Shown piece by piece: positions 24,129 through 56,787 of a stretch of DNA of 64,000 nt. The notes below the pieces were generated by a model that saw only the letters and a list, made by a program, of their open reading frames with translations, did not search any database and had not been told where the DNA came from. The stretch comes from a virus, in the IMG/VR virus record IMGVR_UViG_3300032236_001859, positions 62,001-126,000 of that record; one strand, 5' to 3'. A program made the translations under genes and the position numbers. How positions within the stretch are numbered: the first letter of the stretch is position 1; each line of letters begins with the position of its first letter.

Positions 24129-25730
24129 CTATCGGGAAACAATGGTTACCCCCACGTTCGCCGGCGGGCACGTAAAGAAGGTGTTCAGAGGAGAGAATCC
24201 CTTGGCGTAATCCGTGGGGATCGTGAGGAATGACGAATTGGCGAGGATCACGTTGGTGAGATCAGGTGCCAAGATGGTGGCGTTGAGGACGACGTCGGCG
24301 ACCTCCCCAGATGCGATCAAGGGGGATACCGCGGTGTAAATTGTATAGGGGCTCAGACGGGCAACCCCGAAGTTCAACGCATTGATTGCATTGGATACCG
24401 CGGTCTGGACTTCTGCGATAACCGGTGAGACCCCACCAGGTGGGATCTGGATCTCAAGGGACACCCCGACCATGCAGGGCACCCCGGCTCGAACATAGAT
24501 ATCGGTTCCAGAGGGGCGGACCCCGAGGGCGTAAGAGTAATTCCCGACGGCATCGATCGATGGCATGTAGAGGACATCGACGTCGTACTCTGCTGAGGAT
24601 CCCGCGGGGACATCCGTGGTCAGCGTGGTGTCCGTGAAGACAACGCGGAGATCAACGATGCCGCTGTAATTGAGATCTGAGGTCTTCAGTGTTGTCGGGG
24701 TAAAGACGAGGCCTTGCAGCTTCAGGGGGACCATGCTGACGGGGACGTCACCCTGCGCCCCGGGTGTATTGATTGGGCGGATGAACTGGACGCGATAGAT
24801 ACCTGCGGAGTCCGGGTTAAAGATCGTGAATGCGCGTTGGCGCCCAGTGGACGCCGCAGTAGCCGTGACTCTCAAAGTCTTCTGCACTGGAAACGCTGAG
24901 GTCTTGCACCAGATGTCTTCCTTGGAGCCCTGCGAGGTCCCAAAGACATTCCCACGATCCCGGGTCATCAGACCACTGCCGATGCCGATGACTGCGGTTT
25001 TGATTCCAGCAAACTGGGCATTCAAGGCGGCCTGGATGTGATCGGGACCCCCGAAGGTCTTCGCGGTGACACCATCCTGAGCCCTGGCCAAGAGTTCAGA
25101 TGTGGTCTCTGTATCCTGGCCACCCGTGAAGTCCGTGGCTGCCATGGCGGTTTCCATGCCATCGATGGGGGCCGTGATGGTCAACGCGGTACCCGCACTG
25201 ATGAGCCCAGCGCTACCCGATGTCGTCGCGATCACGGGAACCGTGAACTCGTATTTGCCATCGGCACGGGGGATCAGGATCTTTTGTGTTGAAGTCTCGG
25301 CGACCCCACTGCCGGCGCGGAGGACTCGAATGAAGTCAGATGTCTGATAGGTGACCCCATTGGCACCGAAGAGGTAGCCCGAGGGGATCACATAGGTTGT
25401 GTTGAGGTTGACAACGATGCGCACTGGACCCGACGCCGGGGAGGCCTGGCGTCGGGTGATGTAATAGTTTGAGATCAAGGAGTCCACTTTGGCGGCGTCG
25501 ACATCTACCAAGTTGTCAGCGATGGCCTGCAAGGAAAACGACTTGTTAAGGGCATCAAAGTTGGCGTCGTGAACCGCGGCCATCTGGGCTTCATTTTCGA
25601 CGACGAGACCAGAGATCGCGGAACCATCGGCGAGATCCAAGGTGGGATCACGTTCGATGAGCACTGCCTTCACGAACTCCTTGGCGGCCTGAAAGGTTTC
25701 AGCAGAGATCGGTGCGGTTAGGACTGTCAT
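24129..25730 (-). CDS. Baseplate J-like protein
   Basis: The 533 aa product shows the pattern of the baseplate J / gp47-type family, which forms the wedge ring around the tail hub. It has an N-terminal helical part (AAKEFVKAVLIERDPTLDLA, then GSAISGLVVENEAQMAAVHD). The family's Arg/Ala/Ser linker (ITRRQASPASGPVRIVV) leads into strands with YVIPSGYLFGANGVTYQTS. The C-terminus has EVQTAVSNAINALNFGVARL, the typical end helix before the last strand (SPYTIYTAVSPLIASGEVAD). ATG 25730 overlaps the stop of the 135 aa gene (ATGA). Its location between gp25-like and fibre genes agrees. Confidence 0.8.
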   Translation of the reverse strand: MTVLTAPISAETFQAAKEFVKAVLIERDPTLDLADGSAISGLVVENEAQMAAVHDANFDALNKSFSLQAIADNLVDVDAAKVDSLISNYYITRRQASPASGPVRIVVNLNTTYVIPSGYLFGANGVTYQTSDFIRVLRAGSGVAETSTQKILIPRADGKYEFTVPVIATTSGSAGLISAGTALTITAPIDGMETAMAATDFTGGQDTETTSELLARAQDGVTAKTFGGPDHIQAALNAQFAGIKTAVIGIGSGLMTRDRGNVFGTSQGSKEDIWCKTSAFPVQKTLRVTATAASTGRQRAFTIFNPDSAGIYRVQFIRPINTPGAQGDVPVSMVPLKLQGLVFTPTTLKTSDLNYSGIVDLRVVFTDTTLTTDVPAGSSAEYDVDVLYMPSIDAVGNYSYALGVRPSGTDIYVRAGVPCMVGVSLEIQIPPGGVSPVIAEVQTAVSNAINALNFGVARLSPYTIYTAVSPLIASGEVADVVLNATILAPDLTNVILANSSFLTIPTDYAKGFSPLNTFFTCPPANVGVTIVSR

Positions 25731-36825: not shown

Positions 36826-39516
36826 TCAGACCACGAGATCCATTTCACCATTGTTCAACGGGATCGGGATCGTGGCATTGATGCGGACGACGACGCGATC
36901 GAGGAGAACGGCGTGAGGGCGGATGTATTGAATCTCGGCATCAGTGAGCTGACCACCGAGTTCGTCAGTAGCCGTGTCGGTGACGAGATGTTCGATACCA
37001 CGATTGATCGAGGTCTCGATGAGCTTCAGTGCACTGGGGACCACGTTGGCCTTGCCAATGTACCGGCCGAGTAGACTCAGGAAGTAGTACGAGATCGAGT
37101 CCACGTTGACGGTTGCGGAGTCTTCAGCCTTCTTGGTATCCGAGAGATCAGTGGTGAGCTGCTTGCGGATGAAGGCGACGCCATCGGGGGTCTGGGTGAC
37201 AATGTAGACCCCGTAATTGGCGATGCGATCAAGCTGGTTGGCAAAGGTGACCGTGGACTCACTGAAGTCATCCCAGTCGGTGACTTCGGCGTTGGTGAGG
37301 CCTTGGTGGGGCAGCGAGGCCCCACGGTATGCGGCGAGACCAGCGGCGAGGAAGTAGTTGGCGACTTTGACACCACCGCGACCGGGGTTCGGGGGGAACA
37401 CAACGGTGACGCGACGGTTGGCGTGGTGAGCGGCGCGGCGACCATAGTCGTCGGCTTGTTCATCCACGGTCATGGGATGCCAGATCTCGTAGAGCGAGGG
37501 GACGCCGGATGGGGTCGTCGCGGATTCCACGAGGTTGATGTCTTCTTCGGAAACCACGGAGTCGACTGTGAAGGTCGAGTAAGTGGTGCCACCGAAACCA
37601 TCACTGGTGTACTTGGCACGGACGATGTCACCGGGGATGATACCCTTGGTGATGAACTGGCCATCGACGTCGTGGAGACGGTTGTATTGGGTGCCACCCA
37701 GGGGATCCGTGATCGTGGCGAAACTCTGGGTTTGATCAGGACCACCGATGATGGCCTTCTCGGTCACCAGGGCTTTGCCGTACATCGCGGTGGCCCAGCG
37801 GCCAGCGGTTGCTGTGCTACGACGGTTGATCTCGGCATCCACGGCAGCGTGAACACTTTCATCATGGGTCTGGGGAACGATACGATAGAAGTCGTCACGA
37901 TCCTTGAGGGTAGCCAAGGCAGCCTGATACCCGGCGAGGTCATCGGATGCAATGGGGAGAACTTTGACAACCATTCCAGAGGCCATGGCGAGGGCACGGC
38001 GGACACCGTAGCCGAGGACACCGTCGACGAGGTCCGCACCGACCAGAGATTGGGCAGTGGATTCATCGGCGACATCATGGGTCTTGTTCGCGATTGCCGT
38101 GTTCAAGGCGCGGGTGTCGATAACGGCGTCACCGGCGACAACACTCAGGGCCAGGGCACCGCCGCGTTGATGCGTGGTGGTAATCCCGGCTTGGAGCGTC
38201 AGCGCAGTGGCCGAGGTCACCCAGTTCTTGTTCGGGGGACTCGACAACCGATTCGCGGGGATCTCGAGATCTCCGATAATGGCGAGTTCGACTTGGAGGT
38301 CGACACCACGGAAAGCAGTGGGCAGCGTGTTGGCCAAGATGAGTTCGTTGACATCACCAATGGCTACTGCGGTGGCATCCAGGGTCCATTGATCCCCGGC
38401 GACCAAGACGGCGTTGCCAGCACTGAATGTGAAGCTGACACCTTTGGTACCAATGGGAACCGCGGTGGCCCCGACGACAACGGGAACCCCGGCGTCAGTG
38501 GCATCCGTGGTGGACACCGTGATTTCGGGACGGTTGGCGGCAGCGGGGTCAGTCCATTTGCCACCACGGGTTACGGTGACCACGTAAGTGGTACTCGTTG
38601 CCCCGGAGTAGGAGCCCGCAGGGGTAATCGTGGGGGAGGTGTAGGCCTGGGTGATCGCCCAGCTCCAGGAGTTTCCAGTTTTGAAGTCGTCAGTGAAGTC
38701 ACCGGGGGTGGAACCATCAGCGGTGAACACGATGGAGGCGCCACGGGAACCAATCGGGGTCGAGACCCCGTAAGTGATGCCAGTGATGATTTGTTCGGGG
38801 TCTGTTCCACTCAGGGAGGTCACCCGGAGGCGAACATTAGCGAGCAGATTACTTTCAGAGCCCACGAGGACTTCGATGAGATAGGTCTCGTGCATGGCGC
38901 GGGCACCCTGGCCGGCGTAATTCACTGCCGAGGGGGTCGCGACGACCACTGAGGTGTTGCCCGCATGCGGGGTCAGCGTGGATGCCGCACCTTGGGTGGC
39001 CACGTTGGAGCCCCCAACAGCGACGATACCGGGTCCACCGACACCGGGGATCGGGGTGTTGGGATCCACGGATCCATCGAAGCCCACGATTGAGGTCACG
39101 AAGGCGGCGGAGCCATTGTTGACGCGGACCCAGTCACCGACAACGGGATCAAATGGGATTTCAGCGGCGCGAGAGAACAAACCGTTGTTGACCCAGTTGA
39201 AGGTGCCAACACTGGCTTTCAAGCGATTCGCCTTGCCAGCCACGGTACCAATGTTTTCCGAGGCTGGGATCAGACTATAACGCTGAGCCGCATTTCGGAG
39301 TTCAACACTGGTGTAGGCTTGATCAACGATATCACCAGCCTGCTTATTCGGCCAAGGAAACGCGACCTGGCTTCCAGCATAGGCGCCCAGGGCAACCGCG
39401 AGCTGGACTCGATACGCGGGTCCGAGGACCAAGGCGCGGAGTTGGCGAGTCGTCGCCGAAGCAGACGCCGTGAAGAGCTGATTGATCGCCCACTGCGGCA
39501 AGATTTGATCGACCAT
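36826..39516 (-). CDS. Tail sheath protein
   Basis: 896 aa with the layout of phage tail sheaths: a short N-terminal arm, large insertion domains of variable beta sequence in the middle, and a conserved C-terminal core. The C-terminal third contains GVKVANYFLAAGLAAYRGAS, LDRIANYGVYIVTQTPDGV-type strands, and NVDSISYYFLSLLGRYIGKA. It ends HAVLLDRVVVRINATIPIPL, typical of the sheath domain that contacts the tube. This shows the phage is a myovirus. ATG 39516 is embedded in a TAATG overlap with the previous gene. Confidence 0.85.
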   Translation of the reverse strand: MVDQILPQWAINQLFTASASATTRQLRALVLGPAYRVQLAVALGAYAGSQVAFPWPNKQAGDIVDQAYTSVELRNAAQRYSLIPASENIGTVAGKANRLKASVGTFNWVNNGLFSRAAEIPFDPVVGDWVRVNNGSAAFVTSIVGFDGSVDPNTPIPGVGGPGIVAVGGSNVATQGAASTLTPHAGNTSVVVATPSAVNYAGQGARAMHETYLIEVLVGSESNLLANVRLRVTSLSGTDPEQIITGITYGVSTPIGSRGASIVFTADGSTPGDFTDDFKTGNSWSWAITQAYTSPTITPAGSYSGATSTTYVVTVTRGGKWTDPAAANRPEITVSTTDATDAGVPVVVGATAVPIGTKGVSFTFSAGNAVLVAGDQWTLDATAVAIGDVNELILANTLPTAFRGVDLQVELAIIGDLEIPANRLSSPPNKNWVTSATALTLQAGITTTHQRGGALALSVVAGDAVIDTRALNTAIANKTHDVADESTAQSLVGADLVDGVLGYGVRRALAMASGMVVKVLPIASDDLAGYQAALATLKDRDDFYRIVPQTHDESVHAAVDAEINRRSTATAGRWATAMYGKALVTEKAIIGGPDQTQSFATITDPLGGTQYNRLHDVDGQFITKGIIPGDIVRAKYTSDGFGGTTYSTFTVDSVVSEEDINLVESATTPSGVPSLYEIWHPMTVDEQADDYGRRAAHHANRRVTVVFPPNPGRGGVKVANYFLAAGLAAYRGASLPHQGLTNAEVTDWDDFSESTVTFANQLDRIANYGVYIVTQTPDGVAFIRKQLTTDLSDTKKAEDSATVNVDSISYYFLSLLGRYIGKANVVPSALKLIETSINRGIEHLVTDTATDELGGQLTDAEIQYIRPHAVLLDRVVVRINATIPIPLNNGEMDLVV

Positions 39517-43882: not shown

Positions 43883-46800
43883 TCAGGATCCCGATATGCA
43901 GCCTGAATGCCAGTAACCAACGGCGTCTTCATACCTTCGGCCCCATTGATCCCATGGGGGTCCGTACTTACGCCACTGCATGATATCTGGAATCGTAAAT
44001 GTACCGATATCGACTGTTTGTCCGGCACTGATGACCGCCGACGGTGTCCCGACTATAGACGCTATTGCGTAAACATTGTATTGCTCGCCATAGTCGAGAG
44101 AAATTAAAGCGGATGCGTTTATTGGTGGACCTCTATCCTCTGGCCTAAAACATGATGCAATTGTGGTCATCCACCCCGCTGAAACATTGCATTTCGCCTG
44201 AACCTGATGACAGACCTGGACACCACCCTGTGTTAAGTTCCTTATGTAGTTACCTGAGCTTGGGGTACCCCCATCTGCGATTAACCACTGCCAGGCCCCA
44301 CATAGTGCTGGATAACTCCCGGCCTCGGAATCGCAGAAATGATTAGTGATTAGATGATGCCCGGATCCATCCACCCCATTTTCTATTCCCAGGGTGATCA
44401 TGGATACCACTGACGGATTCGGGATAACGCTGAATACATCTGAATAAGTCCCGTAAGTCGACCATTGTATGGGCGGTGCCGTGATTATGAAGCCTTGTGA
44501 GCGACCCCATGCACCTTCTAACCCACCCTCCCCGCTAGAAGACATCGAAGACGCGTAGTCCATTAAGGGGAACGATAGCACTACTGGGGTGTCACCTACA
44601 TCGGCGGTACCCGAGGATTCGTTACACAGGTATGGATTTTGAACCCCAAAGAAACTAAGTGTCCAGTTTGCTTTACGCAGTCTTCCCTTGTAATTACATC
44701 CTCTCAAGGCGATTTGAACACGTGCAGGACCATAGTTTTGTAGGTACTCTCTTCTGCCACCTGAACCGTTGTTGGGTCCCATATACGTATTGTCGAGTGC
44801 TGTAAATGTAAAACCAACATTATTCCTGTCCCGACGAATAGTGTCCATGAAGTATGACGGGGGTTCTGGGACCTCGAGGCGATCACACGTGAACATGGGA
44901 TGTCCGGGGTTTATATCGCACTTAATCACTTCATTGAGAGGGACATACTTTTTCACAAGTGTCAGCCGACTAATATACCCCTGACAATTACAATCCTGCT
45001 TGGTGTCGTCATAGTTGACCTGCTGCACGCTTCTGAGGCAGTTTACGACTTGGCCTTGAGTGAGTAAGTCGGCACACCCAGTACCGGAGCCCGCAGCCCC
45101 TGGGCATCTGTACAACTCGGGTCCACAACACGACACATCGATATGACCGGCGGATACCCCAAAAGTACCCCACCTGCCTGAGTAATAATTTCCATCTCCT
45201 TCATTATAGTAACCATAGAAATACCCAATGAACATCTTGGAGTCTTCCTCAACCTTCTCCCACGTGGAGTCATCGTCATCGGAGAGATACCAGGTATCGC
45301 TCTGAAACACATAAACGTGTTGACTACAGTAATCAAACTCACAGTCACAGGTAAGGGGCTCCTCGGAACCCCCTGCGCAGGGCGCACCGCGGACAAACAG
45401 TCTGGCAATGCTCGAGGATCCATTTGACCAGAGTTCAACTTCTTCGGGGTTGTATTCATACCCCCCAACACAAATCGAGGATGCCACGACTTCAGCGGCA
45501 TCTGTGCAATCTGTCTCAATGATGCCATCTACGGTAACACTGGTCGGAGTGATATCCACTGCGGAGTGTGTATGACTCTCACAATCCGCACAGGTATCCG
45601 CTGGTGGCGCGCATGTTGCCCCAGTGGGGCCTCGTGGGCCAGTATCACCTGCTCGGGAGTCAGCGCCAGGCGTACCCTGTTGACCGTCTATCCCCTTGGG
45701 GCCTTCGGCGCCTGGATATACATTTCCAGGGGCACCACGGGGACCAATGGGTCCCCTGTTACCATAACTTCCAGGTGGGCCCTGTGGACCCGGATCACCA
45801 TCGGGGCCCTGTAGACCCGTGGGCCCCATGGGGCCATTGATATTTCCACCAGCGGGGCCCACGGGACCCGCGGGACCACGCGGTCCCACTGGACCCGGAA
45901 CACCCTTGTCCCCGGTTTCTCCGATTTCACCGTCGGGGCCCTGGACTCCAGTGGGTCCAAGCAGTCCAAGGGGTCCGGCGTCGCCTTGAGGACCAATACC
46001 ACCGGCTACACCTGCGGGCCCTTTTTCACCTTGTGGACCCGGGATTCCCTGGACGCCTCGGGGTCCCTTGGGACCATCGAGTCCAGGGGCTCCTGGCTTC
46101 CCGGCTAAACCGGGGTCTCCTTTGATTCCACGTACCCCAGGTAAACCTTCGGGCCCCGTGGCACCCTGGGGTCCGATAACCCCTGTAATTCCCTGTGGTC
46201 CCGTTGCGGCTACACCAGTGGGGCCCTGTTCACCCTGGGGGCCCTGGACGCCTTGTTGCTGGGGTCCTTGGGGACCCTGGGGTCCCGTGGTACCTTGAAT
46301 ACCAGTGATGCCATGTGGTCCCGTGAACCCCCGGGGCCCCGTGGCCCCCGCGGCTCCTGGAGTCGTCCCCGGGATGCCCTGGGGACCCTGTGGACCCTGG
46401 GGTGCCCAGGCCTGAGATGACCACGTGGAAAGTGCAGTGCGTGTATAAACAACGGCGACATCAACGGCAAGATAGGTGTACCCCGTGGGTACACTGCCCG
46501 CAGATGGTCGCCCAGAAAGATTACCAACTCCGTTCAGAGCCTTGGTTCCATCGACACCACGGGGTCCCATGACCCCAGTGGCCCCCGCTGGGCTGATACC
46601 AGTGGGACCCTGGATGCCACGTGGCCCCGGTACTCCGACTGGCCCCTGCAGACCCGTGTAACCCAGAGGACCGCTTGCACCCAGTACACCCTGGACCCCA
46701 GGGGCTCCCTGGAGTCCTTGAGGTCCCGCTATACCCTGCGGCCCGGTATCACCAGGGAATCCCTGTAAACCCAGGGGGCCCTGTGGACCCGCGAGGCCTG

Positions 46801-47479
46801 GTCCAGTGATGCCCTGTGGACCCCTTGGGCCACTCAGGCCTTGTGGACCCGTGGCCCCAACGCCGATCTCAGTCCAATCCGCAATAGTATTGGTTCTCGT
46901 GTTTGCCGTGCATAACCACAACGAGAAGTTTCCGGCGTCCTCAATCCAGCGGTCACCCTGAGAATACTCTCTGGCGAGAACCCAACTCCGTGGGCATCTC
47001 CATTCCTTGAATGGGGCAGACAGCGACAGCGGACTCGGGTATATCTTTGCTGCGATTACCCATGAGTGCACGAACCAAATGAAGAGCTCATTGAGGTCGG
47101 TGTCATACCATCTAAAACCGGTGTCAGATCTACTCAAAGAAATCGCGAGTCGTTGTGTTGTCGGCCCAAACTGGACCTGGAGCTCGGAGATATGCCCAGC
47201 GGTGACCACGAGCCCCACGAGTTCCTGGGCAGCGTGGAGAACCGCTGTGGTGCCCTGGAGACCACGTGCTAACCCATGCAGGAATCTTCCAGATATCGAA
47301 GAGTATCCGATGACTTCACTGGGTTCCCCTACGAAACCAGTACCAACGGCGACGACGCCCCCATTGGGGTCGAGTCGCGTGGTATCCATGACTTCAACGT
47401 AGGAATCGGGACCCTCGGCATCAGCGAGAAGCACGGTGGCCAGTCGAGTAATCGTGTTGTTTTGAATTGGCAGAGCCAT
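43883..47479 (-). CDS. Collagen-like tail fibre, 1198 aa (Cys-rich C-terminal domain)
   Basis: ATG 47479. Residues 1-200 are the anchor domain shared with the genes at 48548 and 52885 (start [20 protein letters not shown], later [20 protein letters not shown] and a LNELFIWF strand). Residues about 208-626 are Gly-x-y repeats (such as GPQGPQGP), broken at about 306-360 by a non-collagen loop. Next comes [16 protein letters not shown], a pattern also seen in the other two large collagen genes, and then about 570 residues rich in Cys with many Tyr/Asp. This gives a trimeric stalk ending in a disulfide-rich knob, most likely host-binding. The C-terminal part is AT-richer than its neighbours. Confidence 0.75.
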
Positions 47480-48514
47480 TCAGTACCCCAATAGAGTCTT
47501 GGTGTCACCGCAGGTCTCAACTAGAGTAGGCCCAGCAGACCTGCCGGCAACTATGAGCGACCCCGCACGCAAAATAGTAGTATCGAGGACTTGAGTGAGT
47601 GTTGTCACCGCTTTGACATGAACGGGTGATAATGTATCGCCGGCGTGGTCGTGATTACATGGGGGCTGCGCCGGCCACGTCGAGGGATCACAGGGCCCCG
47701 TAGGTCCAGTGGGGCCCTGGGGTCCCGGGATGACTCTGCCAGGGTTCCCTGGGGATCCCATGTCTCCAGTGGGCCCCTGGGGGCCTACTGGACCGATGCC
47801 GCCATCATAACCTTGAGGCCCCTGGATGCCACGACCACCCGGAGGTCCCTGGGTTCCAGCTGGACCCAGGGGTCCCTTGTTGCCCTGTGGGCCCTGAGGG
47901 CCTTGTGGCCCCGTAGAAGTTTTCCCTGTGGGCCCACGTGGTCCCTGGATTCCGCGTGGACCAGTGGGACCAACTCCAGTGGTACCTCTTGGACCCCGTG
48001 CACCCTTGGCTCCCCTGGGACCACGATCACCTTGATGCCCGCGTGGGCCCTGCTCACCCTGAGGACCCGGGATTCCGTTTGGACCCGGGTCGCCCTGGGG
48101 ACCCCATGGGCCCTGAACTCCCTGGGGTCCAATGTCGCCAGGAGGCCCCTGTAAACCGTCGCGTCCACGGTTGCCGTCTTTTCCTGGATCCCCGACATCG
48201 CCTTGGGGTCCCTGGACACCCTGTCGAAGCGGACCAGTGGGCCCCTGCGGACCCTGGATACCGCGTGGTCCCGTGACCCCATTAAATCCAGGTATCCCGG
48301 TTATACCTTGAATACCAGTGATCCCCTGGGGGCCCGTAGACCCCGTGATCCCCTGAGGGCCCCGTGGACCCTGGATACCCTGGGGACCCCCTGGACCAGA
48401 TAGACCCCGGGGCCCCTGACCGCCGACGACACCACGTGGTCCCGCGGGGCCTTGTGGCCCCTGAGGACCCGCGACGCCTTTACCAGGAAGAGGGCCTAAC
48501 CAGAGATCAGCCAT
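47480..48514 (-). CDS. Short collagen-like protein, 344 aa
   Basis: ATG 48514. A short N-terminus ([10 protein letters not shown]) leads straight into Gly-x-y repeats from about residue 9 to 270, without the 200-residue anchor of its neighbours. The C-terminal part has [20 protein letters not shown], then [20 protein letters not shown] and a [10 protein letters not shown] strand. It matches the pattern following the collagen of the neighbouring genes. Its stop abuts the start of the next fibre gene (TGA then ATG). It may be a separate stalk that joins the others in a heterotrimer, or a remnant of a split fibre gene. Confidence 0.7.
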
Positions 48515-52884: not shown

Positions 52885-55800
52885 TTAATTCTCGGTGACG
52901 TCTGAACCAAGTAGGGGGTTACCGGGGAGTCCAGCCCCTGGGGTCTTGGTATAAAACTTGCAGTCAGGTAAATGTCTTTCGAGAACCCAAGTAGTTACCT
53001 TACCGCTGATCACAATCACCAATGTAGCAAGGCAGTCGTTGGTGGCATCAAATGTTAGACTAGCGCGAAGAACCTTCCCACCACCTGCTAATCCCTCACA
53101 AGTGAGATCAAAAGATCCTGCTTCCAGTGTCCACTTCCTGGGATCTGCGGTCTGTATCAACCTCAGATTGAGTCCACAGTCCCCTATAGAAGGGATGTTT
53201 GTGATCGTGAATCCAAAGTTGATTTCCGTACCCGGCATATCGCACCCACACTGCTCATACGGCGTACTGGACCCACTGGAGTGATGCGATGAACCACTGG
53301 AATGATGTGATGATCCGCTGGAGTGATGTGAACCACTGGAGTGATGCGACGACCCACTGGGGAGGTGCGAACCGCTGGAGTGATGGGAACTCGCATGACT
53401 CGACCCATGCCCAGACGACTTGCCAGACGGTGGTGGTTTCCCACTGGATCCCATGTGACTCGACGTGTGGCCAGACTTGTGCCCAGACGATCTGCCAGAT
53501 GGCTGATGTTGCCCACTGGAGGTATGGCTGTGCGGCTGACTATGTGGATGGCTGTAGGGGTGGCTACCACAGCATCGGAGGTAGTCGAACCCTGGAGGTG
53601 GATTTGTGTTGGGGTCCGGTGGCATCCCGGCCGCAGGTGACACCTCGCGCATCGTGAAGAGGTCACAGTCAAACTGAGTGCAGGGATCCACTACCACTGA
53701 CTTGATGTAAACGAAACGACATGGATCCGGGTCGAGAACTGGATAGAAGACTATATCGTTGACATGAACACCTTCCCCGCCGCTGTGGTCGCAGACCACG
53801 CAGGTACCAACACAACGTATTCTACCACCGGTGTCGTTGAACACCGCTGTCCCCACAACCTGGATTTCAGCACCGGGGTACCACCCATCGGGGACATCCC
53901 TAAATGGACCGGCCCATACCACTCTATCCGTGAGATCCCATGCCATGGTGTCACAGTTGAACGTGAACTCGCTGATTACGAGCTCCTTCATGAGCTCGCA
54001 GTTGCATTCACATGGATGGCTGTAGGGGTGACTGTATGGGTGACTGTGCTTCCCGCTGGAGTGGTGTGACGACCCCGAGTGCTTGGCGGAGTGATGTGAT
54101 GACCCCGAGTGTCTCCCACTGGAATGATGCGATGACCCCGAGTGATGTGCGGACCCCGAATGATGCGAAGACCCTGAGTGCTTGGCAGAGTGATGCGATG
54201 AACCCGAATGATGTGATGAGCCCGAGTGTTTCCCACTGGAATGATGCGATGAACCCGAGTGGTGTGACGAACCCGAGTGGTGTGACGAACCCGAATGATG
54301 TGACGAACCCGAATGATGTGACGAACCCGAATGATGCGATGATCCCGAATGATGCGATGATCCCGAATGATGCGATGATCCCGAATGATGTGACGAGCCC
54401 GAATGATGCGATGACCCCGAATGATGCGATGACCCCGAATGATGCGATGACCCCGAGTGGTGTGACGACCCCGAATGGTGTGACGACCCCGAATGGTGGG
54501 ATGACCCACTGGAACCACTGGAACCACTGGAACCACTGGAACCACTGGAACCACTGGAACCACTGGAACCACTGGAACCACTGCTGCCGCTGGACCCACT
54601 GGACCCACTGCTACCATTGGACCCACTGGACCCACTGCTACCATTGGACCCACTGCTACCACTGGACCCACTGGAACCACCACCACTGCTGGCTCCACTT
54701 TGTGTGGGGCACTCGGTGACTTCACAATCACATGCTGGTCTGGGATCGCATTGTTTAAGAACCCCGATGCACTTGAACCCAGTAGCAACGCAGGCCTTGA
54801 TGACATCCGGGCACCAACCCACCCCACCAACATCGAGCGCATTCGTCGAACACAGCACTGTATCCATCGTGGAGGTGCAATAGTTTTGTGCAATGATTCC
54901 TGCCGGAGAAATCACGTCACCGCCATCTTTGGGATCCCCTCTACCGAGAACCCCATCACAAACACAGTTACTTACACAGTGTTGATGAGGTTGGCATGCC
55001 GGTTTACCCTGGGAATCACCGAAATCGCCCTGGGGGCCGCGCGGACCCGTGGGACCATCTGGCCCAACGGGGACTTCAGCATCGGGTCCTGCGGGGCCCT
55101 GCGGACCCCTTTCACCTTGAGGACCATCTAACCCGGGGACTCCATCGTATCCCCGTGGTCCCGCTGGACCCTGTACGGTTCCCGCGGGGCCCTGCGGACC
55201 CTGGGGCCCGATATCTCCGGCTTCTCCCTTTAGCCCAGGGATGCCTTGCGGACCCGTGCTACCATCTGGGGGGCCGTCGTAATCACTGCCACGTGGACCA
55301 ATGGGTCCCGTGTGACCACGTGGTCCAGTAACAGATATTCCAGTTAAACCTTTATCACCGGGTTCACCCTGATCACCAGTGGCACCCTGGGGTCCCACTG
55401 GACCCGGGTCGCCTCGAGGCCCCTTGATCACGGCTCCCATGGGTCCGCGGTCACCCCGGGGCCCCTGTGGACCCGGGAGTCCCTGTGGACCCTGTGGCCC
55501 CTGGATGCCGGGGTTGCCTGGTAGCCCGTCTACACCAGGGGCGCCTTGTTGACCCTTGATGCCCTGGGGACCCTGTGGCCCTGGAGTAGTCTGCGCTGGC
55601 CCCTTGGGCCCCATGTAGCCCTGGGGTCCAGTGGGGCCGATCCCAGTGCTCCCCTGTGGACCCGTCGGACCCTGGGGGCCTGGATCTCCTGGGGGACCCA
55701 CTGGCCCCTCGACTCCGGTGTTTCCAGCGATGCCCTGAGTGCCTTGAGGCCCCACGGCACCATCGACACCACGTGGTCCCGTGTACCCCCGTGGACCCTG

Positions 55801-56787
55801 GGCACCCTGGATCCCTTGGATTCCACGGTCGCCTTGACGTGCGGTGAATCCTGATCCCGTGGCACCCTGGGGACCAGTGATACCTTGGGTACCCCGGGTT
55901 CCCGTGGCACCACGTACACCTGGGATGCCTTGCGGTCCCGTTAAACCCTGGGATCCATCGGGGCCCTGATAGCCCTGTGGACCACTGGGTCCACGCGGAC
56001 CACTGGGACCCAATGCAGTTGGTGTGGCGCCAATTGGACCCTGGACACCAGTGGGTCCAATGTCACCCGTTGGTCCACGGGGTCCTCTGGGACCCGTGGC
56101 CCCTGGGGTCCCCGGACCCTGGTCTCCTCGTGGACCCGTGGGGCCCAGAGGACCCCGTGGACCCGTGGCCCCCACAAGAATAGGCGACCAATCGGAGAGC
56201 TGGCCGGAAGGTGTGTGATCGCAGATGTATAACAAGTTGGTGTCGGTATCTAACCAGCGATCACCAAATGAATATGGAAGGACTACGATGTCCTCTGCAG
56301 GCGCAATGAAATCCTTGATACCGCGACTTGGTCCGGTGAGGCCGCCCCCATGGGTGAGTACGGCCGCATTGAACTTGAAGCCATCCCATCGCGTGAAGAC
56401 ATCGCCAGGAGTATCCAAGTAGATGTAACCACGCTCACGTAAACTCAGGGTCAGCGCGGCGCGCTGCTCTGGGGTCATCTCGTGAATCCGGAGTTCCTGG
56501 ATGTGCTCTGCGGTGATCGTGGACCATATCTTGGTACCAGTATCCCATGCCTTGGGAGTTGTACCCCCGAACCCACGACCATTAAGGGGGAGCAGTTCAA
56601 CGAAGAGGAGTCCCGCGCCAACATTCTTGTTTGATAGCCGGATGAGCTCAACACCAGTGGATCGAGACCCCAGAGCAACAATGATCGGGGTCTCGATCTT
56701 GGAGGCATCGCTGACTTCAATCACTGTACCCGAGACCCCAAGTGGGGCCGTAAGGGTAACAACGGCATTGTTCTGAATCGGTAGCAC
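52885..56787 (-). CDS. Collagen-like fibre with His-Ser-Gly repeats and Cys domains, 1300 aa
   Basis: GTG 56787 with TAGGGG upstream. The anchor domain covers residues 1-200 ([19 protein letters not shown]). Gly-x-y repeats run about 209-596, then a Cys-rich segment. From about 700 come Ser/Gly triplets and then hexapeptide SSHHSG-type repeats (about 762-919), with interruptions by KHSG. A Cys-rich beta domain follows (about 920-1075, [20 protein letters not shown]), then a second His-rich block (about 1076-1172) and a C-terminal Cys-containing beta domain. The His-rich stretches could bind metal ions, and the whole may be a very long flexible adhesin. Low complexity at the DNA level makes length changes likely. 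Confidence 0.75.
53265..53420. repeat. Short tandem repeats encoding Ser-His-rich stretch, second block
   Basis: Repeats of GATGCGATGAACCACTGG type, 15-18 bases long and imperfect, encode [10 protein letters not shown]-like residues. They resemble the block at 54055-54690 but are shorter and less regular. Confidence 0.6.
54055..54690. repeat. Tandem repeats, 18-base unit then 9-base unit
   Basis: About fifteen near-perfect copies of an 18-base unit (like GAATGATGTGACGAACCC) occupy about 54240-54510. Less regular copies lie down to 54055. A 9-base unit (CCACTGGAA, CCATTGGAC and variants) follows to about 54690. Together they encode HHSGSS and SGS repeats on the minus strand. Confidence 0.8.

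Follow-up and report, generated by a model that had tools for sequence, protein, structure and literature searches.

Collagen-like fibres have been described from prophages of E. coli O157:H7, where EPclA and EPclB are trimeric, their globular domains sitting on semi-flexible stalks, and EPclB carries three globular domains on flexible stalks (PMC3368898). T4 gp37 and phi11 RBP bind iron through His, and the iron sites known from phage fibres have an HxH motif (PMC11705849, PMC4901313). The fibre analysed here resembles EPclA/EPclB in that a Gly-X-Y stalk joins globular domains in what, judging from its collagen stalk, is probably a trimer. However, its distal domains are Cys-rich and are tied by long Ser/Gly/His tandem-repeat linkers. 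It also has His motifs in common with the HxH iron-binding fibres (T4 gp37; Alteromonas phage R22Y gp12, PMC11705849), an HxH following the collagen stalk here, but unlike them it carries an SSHHSG tract whose His residues form adjacent pairs, with no HxH, and which its orthologues do not conserve. His-rich tandem repeats likewise occur in the Plasmodium histidine-rich protein (PF05403); the weak match to this family (20.4 bits versus a cut-off of 45.8) was rejected as sub-threshold and attributable to composition, and gives no evidence of homology.

Layout of the fibre gene

The window, i.e. the whole 64,000-nucleotide stretch that was analysed, comprises bases 62001–126000 of a 216,043-base IMG/VR virus record and originates from a large uncultured phage. 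The ORF listing placed the fibre gene, encoding 1300 aa with a GTG start, on the minus strand (Table 1). Residues ~206–594 matched PF01391 with short interruptions (155 bits versus a cut-off of 27.2), and what PHROG and NCBIfam recognised in the fibre was confined to this collagen part. Both a long Gly-X-Y tract and a position in a tail/fibre gene cluster were found, bearing out the initial annotation of the protein as a collagen-stalked phage fibre. Its placement of the His repeats within a collagen-like fibre was right for the protein but not for the collagen part, which ends near residue 594 with the tract distal to the stalk. The interval that had been assigned to the repeats (53265–54690) holds both His blocks, but it also spans an unrelated Cys-rich domain (53566–54045) and most of the (SSG)n block (54505–54699).

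Table 1 Coordinates of the fibre gene, its parts and the neighbouring fibre genes within the window.
Feature	Position	Strand	Evidence or remark
Collagen-stalk fibre	43883–47479	-	Neighbour of the 52885–56787 gene
Collagen-stalk fibre	47480–48514	-	Neighbour of the 52885–56787 gene
RCC1-repeat fibre-like protein, 1438 aa	48548–52864	-	17 RCC1_2 stretches, 419.9 bits
Fibre gene	52885–56787	-	ORF; Pfam Collagen E 3.6e−46; PHROG tail fibre matches; orthologues in L009/L010/L007
N-terminal domain, residues 1–205	56173–56787	-	88–90% identity in L009/L010
Gly-X-Y collagen-like stalk, residues 206–594	55006–56172	-	Pfam PF01391; 73–74% identity in orthologues
Cys-rich domain 1, residues 595–696	54700–55005	-	Identity 72% in L009, 68% in L010
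HxH in CQPHQHC, residues 601–603, directly after stalk	54979–54987	-	Conserved in L009/L010
(SSG)n part of linker 1, residues 697–761	54505–54699	-	Repeat analysis
SSHHSG tract of linker 1, residues 762–914	54046–54504	-	Repeat analysis
Cys-rich domain 2, residues 915–1074	53566–54045	-	Identity 64% in L007
Linker 2, residues 1075–1174	53266–53565	-	SSHHSSG-type 7-residue units plus single HLPSG and QPSG units
C-terminal beta-rich domain, residues 1175–1300	52888–53265	-	Identity 63% in L007

From its collagen stalk, the fibre is presumably trimeric. The N-terminal domain, which probably serves virion attachment, was 36–40% identical to the N-terminal parts of two neighbouring fibres over aligned stretches that include some collagen. 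Neither this domain nor Cys-rich domains 1 and 2 had a match among 50,697 phage records, and for the two Cys-rich domains there was likewise no match in NCBIfam and no Pfam domain. The latter are possibly disulphide-bonded; 32 Cys were counted across the whole fibre protein. The C-terminal domain, the probable fibre tip, gave an AlphaFold2 model with eight strands (pLDDT 77.8), for which fold comparison returned nothing significant (best E = 0.057). The AlphaFold2 model of residues 595–1300 was too poor for use (mean pLDDT 38), and the low pLDDT of the linkers is uninformative, domains 1 and 2 having been modelled poorly as well. The distal domains may have a receptor-binding role.

Linker repeats in the window and in related phages

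About 15 near-perfect SSHHSG repeats and a second block had been reported for this fibre, and this observation was confirmed: 14 contiguous perfect units occupy residues 762–845 (54504–54253), two further perfect units bring the total to 16, and the second block is linker 2, built mainly of SSHHSSG-type units. The period differs between the linkers, at six residues in block 1 and seven in block 2. His accounts for 49/153 residues (32%) of the SSHHSG tract and 22/100 residues of linker 2, or ~71 per chain in the two linkers together. At the DNA level, the two-unit pattern had 16 matches in the window versus none in 100 shuffles, and TRF returned an 18-bp unit in 21.9 copies (54122–54507). Three tandem SSHHSG units were found in 0 of 2.9 million IMG/VR contigs (the window's own record excluded), so the repeat is rare, in keeping with the earlier remark that a His density this high is unusual in phage fibres. 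Two matches to the three-unit pattern in bacterial contigs were dismissed as chance. In Nitrosovibrio the frame encodes repeats of THHSGA, with a more plausible GPGMMG frame on the opposite strand; the match in Yersinia has no SSHHSG frame. Searching the tract DNA with blastn gave no match; nor did tblastn of the tract against the phage collection, a result that is uninformative as BLAST masks low complexity.

Adjacent units of the 14-unit block, which was picked for its protein-level perfection, differed by 18 synonymous and 0 nonsynonymous codon changes, all of which became nonsynonymous when read in the two other same-strand frames. All eight variant types in the block were synonymous (P = 3.5e−5, neutral expectation 28% synonymous) and the whole His tract, a count free of that choice, gave 49 synonymous to 21 nonsynonymous changes (P = 3e−13 versus a neutral synonymous fraction of 0.278), although both P values are optimistic because changes in a tandem array are non-independent. 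The synonymous-only codon differences in the 14-unit block indicate that the amino-acid sequence is under selection in this lineage. Within the array, conservation at His positions was about equal to that at Ser or Gly positions. Holding the His codons as strictly as those of Ser and Gly is more than a purely neutral spacer requires, so some property of HH may be important in this lineage.

Orthologues of the fibre were identified in three IMG/VR contigs (L009, L010 and L007), and queries with the N-terminal domain, the other domains or the 896-aa protein described below retrieved no further relatives among viral contigs. L009 and L007 come from the same sample and probably represent one phage, in which case the three contigs correspond to two phages. 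L009 stops and L007 starts within one and the same SSQPSG repeat, L010 breaks off inside an array of its own, and these contigs cover linker 1 in part only. All parts follow the same order in the orthologues as in the window fibre (domains distal to the stalk 62–72% identical; identities per part in Table 1), and the stalk is exactly 389 aa long in each. While stalk length is thus fixed between phages, the tethers of the tip domains appear to be rebuilt from variants of one unit. Linker 1 of L009/L007 consists of SSQPSG and SNPSKPSG units (0% His), and that of L010 of (GS)31 and SSQQPSG followed by 16 SSHLPSG units (9.7% His). Linker 2 is 100 aa long in the window versus 129 aa in L007, where it is made of SNPSHP and SSG units. 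All linkers, in the window and in the relatives, are Ser/Gly/polar and hydrophilic, with 0–9% hydrophobic residues. The initial annotation had expected the DNA repeat to be prone to expansion and contraction; the exchange of SSHHSG for SSQPSG/SNPSKPSG or SSHLPSG supports such changes between phages.

A common DNA skeleton, SS-x-x-[S/P]SG, underlies the units, so amplification seems to have picked a different unit variant in each lineage. Linker 2 of the window contains a single HLPSG (CAC CTC CCC AGT GGG) and a single QPSG (CAG CCA TCT GGC) beside HHSSG (CAT CAC TCC AGT GGG). Both single units resemble, codon by codon, the units of L010, in which CAC TTA CCC AGT GGG is amplified and CAG CAA CCA TCT GGG is present in two copies. 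HHSSG and HLPSG are separated by one base difference per changed residue, and the distal ends of linker 1 in the window and L010 can be aligned at the DNA level around SGKHSGSSH. The simplest account of the three contigs would be descent from one ancestral SS-x-x-(S/P)SG unit, with a different variant amplified per lineage.

Role of the histidine-rich tract

We consider it probable that the tract is a flexible spacer undergoing rapid repeat turnover, rather than a conserved metal-binding device. Spacing is the most likely function of these hydrophilic tracts, which lie between folded domains and beyond a rigid stalk of fixed length. Two flexible, hydrophilic, low-complexity linkers, the first of them including the SSHHSG tract, would string three Cys-rich or globular distal domains like beads beyond the rigid collagen stalk of a presumably trimeric tail fibre. 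Repeat units of 18–21 bp are prone to recombination, and unequal recombination or slippage acting on tandem arrays of the ancestral unit may have amplified one variant per phage lineage, the HH variant having spread here and the QP or HLP variant in the relatives. Amino-acid composition would then be held within a lineage and might change completely between lineages. If true, this would be a simple way for a receptor-binding fibre to alter how far it reaches and the chemistry of its surface, with its domains left untouched.

Arrays of differing composition at the same place in related phages, together with the recombination-prone unit length, would also be expected if the tract were neutral low-complexity DNA that had been expanded by slippage and merely lies in frame. 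The synonymous excess, both in the 14-unit block (18:0) and over the tract (49:21), argues against this and makes it very unlikely. Mis-assembled or collapsed repeats, an error the initial annotation had itself raised, would fit with the contigs of both relatives terminating within the same array, and fibre genes of such repeat type do break short-read assemblies. In the window, however, the longest exact direct repeats are 47 bp (His block) and 69 bp (SSG block), versus 101–125 bp where the contigs of the relatives break. Exact repeats are this short because the units carry different codons, which also set most junctions apart from one another; the reading frame is intact. An artefact of this kind is therefore extremely improbable.

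The density of His had originally been taken to suggest metal-dependent folding or binding. The tract would then bind metal (Zn, Ni, Cu or Fe), either to cross-link or fold the three chains or to load the virion with metal as an iron lure. With His at the count given above, a trimer would carry >200 in its linkers, His has been kept in the 14-unit block while codons drifted only synonymously, and fibres and spikes of other phages do bind iron via His (T4 gp37 HxH, phi11 RBP; PMC11705849, PMC4901313). However, QP, NP/KP or HLP replace the His pairs in orthologues that have the same flanking domains, the SSHHSG tract has no internal HxH, there is no fixed register between a period of six in one linker and seven in the other, and a separate conserved HxH is present in domain 1. 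Because the His pairs are absent from these orthologues and HxH is absent from the tract, the proposal of a metal-binding tract was left unsupported, and we regard it as unlikely. His-richness by itself is no ground for reading metal binding. It is also conceivable, if quite improbable, that the HH pairs, which are under selection in this lineage, make the linker responsive to metal or pH, for instance with the chains of the trimer zipping together on Zn/Ni/Fe or unzipping at low pH. Were this so, the fibre would have a switchable tether of a new kind, missing from the sister phages.

A better candidate for a metal site than the tract is the HxH at the stalk end, which may form a putative trimeric site on the three-fold axis. 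Within the fibre, HxH occurs at residues 601, 914 (the junction with domain 2), 1080 and 1086. Each of the window's three collagen fibres with a long stalk has an HxH 5–14 residues past the stalk end, in CQPHQHC (52885–56787), in CNHDHAGD (47480–48514) and also in 43883–47479. Shuffling gave P = 0.003–0.008 for each, values that serve as a guide only, the motif having been noticed before testing and the fibres being related. The stalk-end HxH is conserved in both orthologues that reach the CQPHQHC site (L009 and L010) as well as in L007 and L017, and is present in the paralogues.

Neighbouring tail genes

The RCC1-repeat protein adjoining the fibre gene has the shared N-terminal domain and a short collagen stretch, and is kept in L007; its RCC1_2 stretches are probable beta-propellers. 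A search of the phage's own genome for the phrog_2 terminase gave no match. A Baseplate_J protein is encoded at 24129–25730 of the window, which suggests a contractile tail. The L007 genome encodes a counterpart, at 88% identity, of the 896-aa protein at 36826–39516 (minus strand); the C-terminal half of the window protein shares 25–27% identity with Vibrio phages D69/D148/D181 and Salmonella phage Arash. From its position it is probably the tail sheath, and the 168-aa protein adjoining it could be the tail tube.
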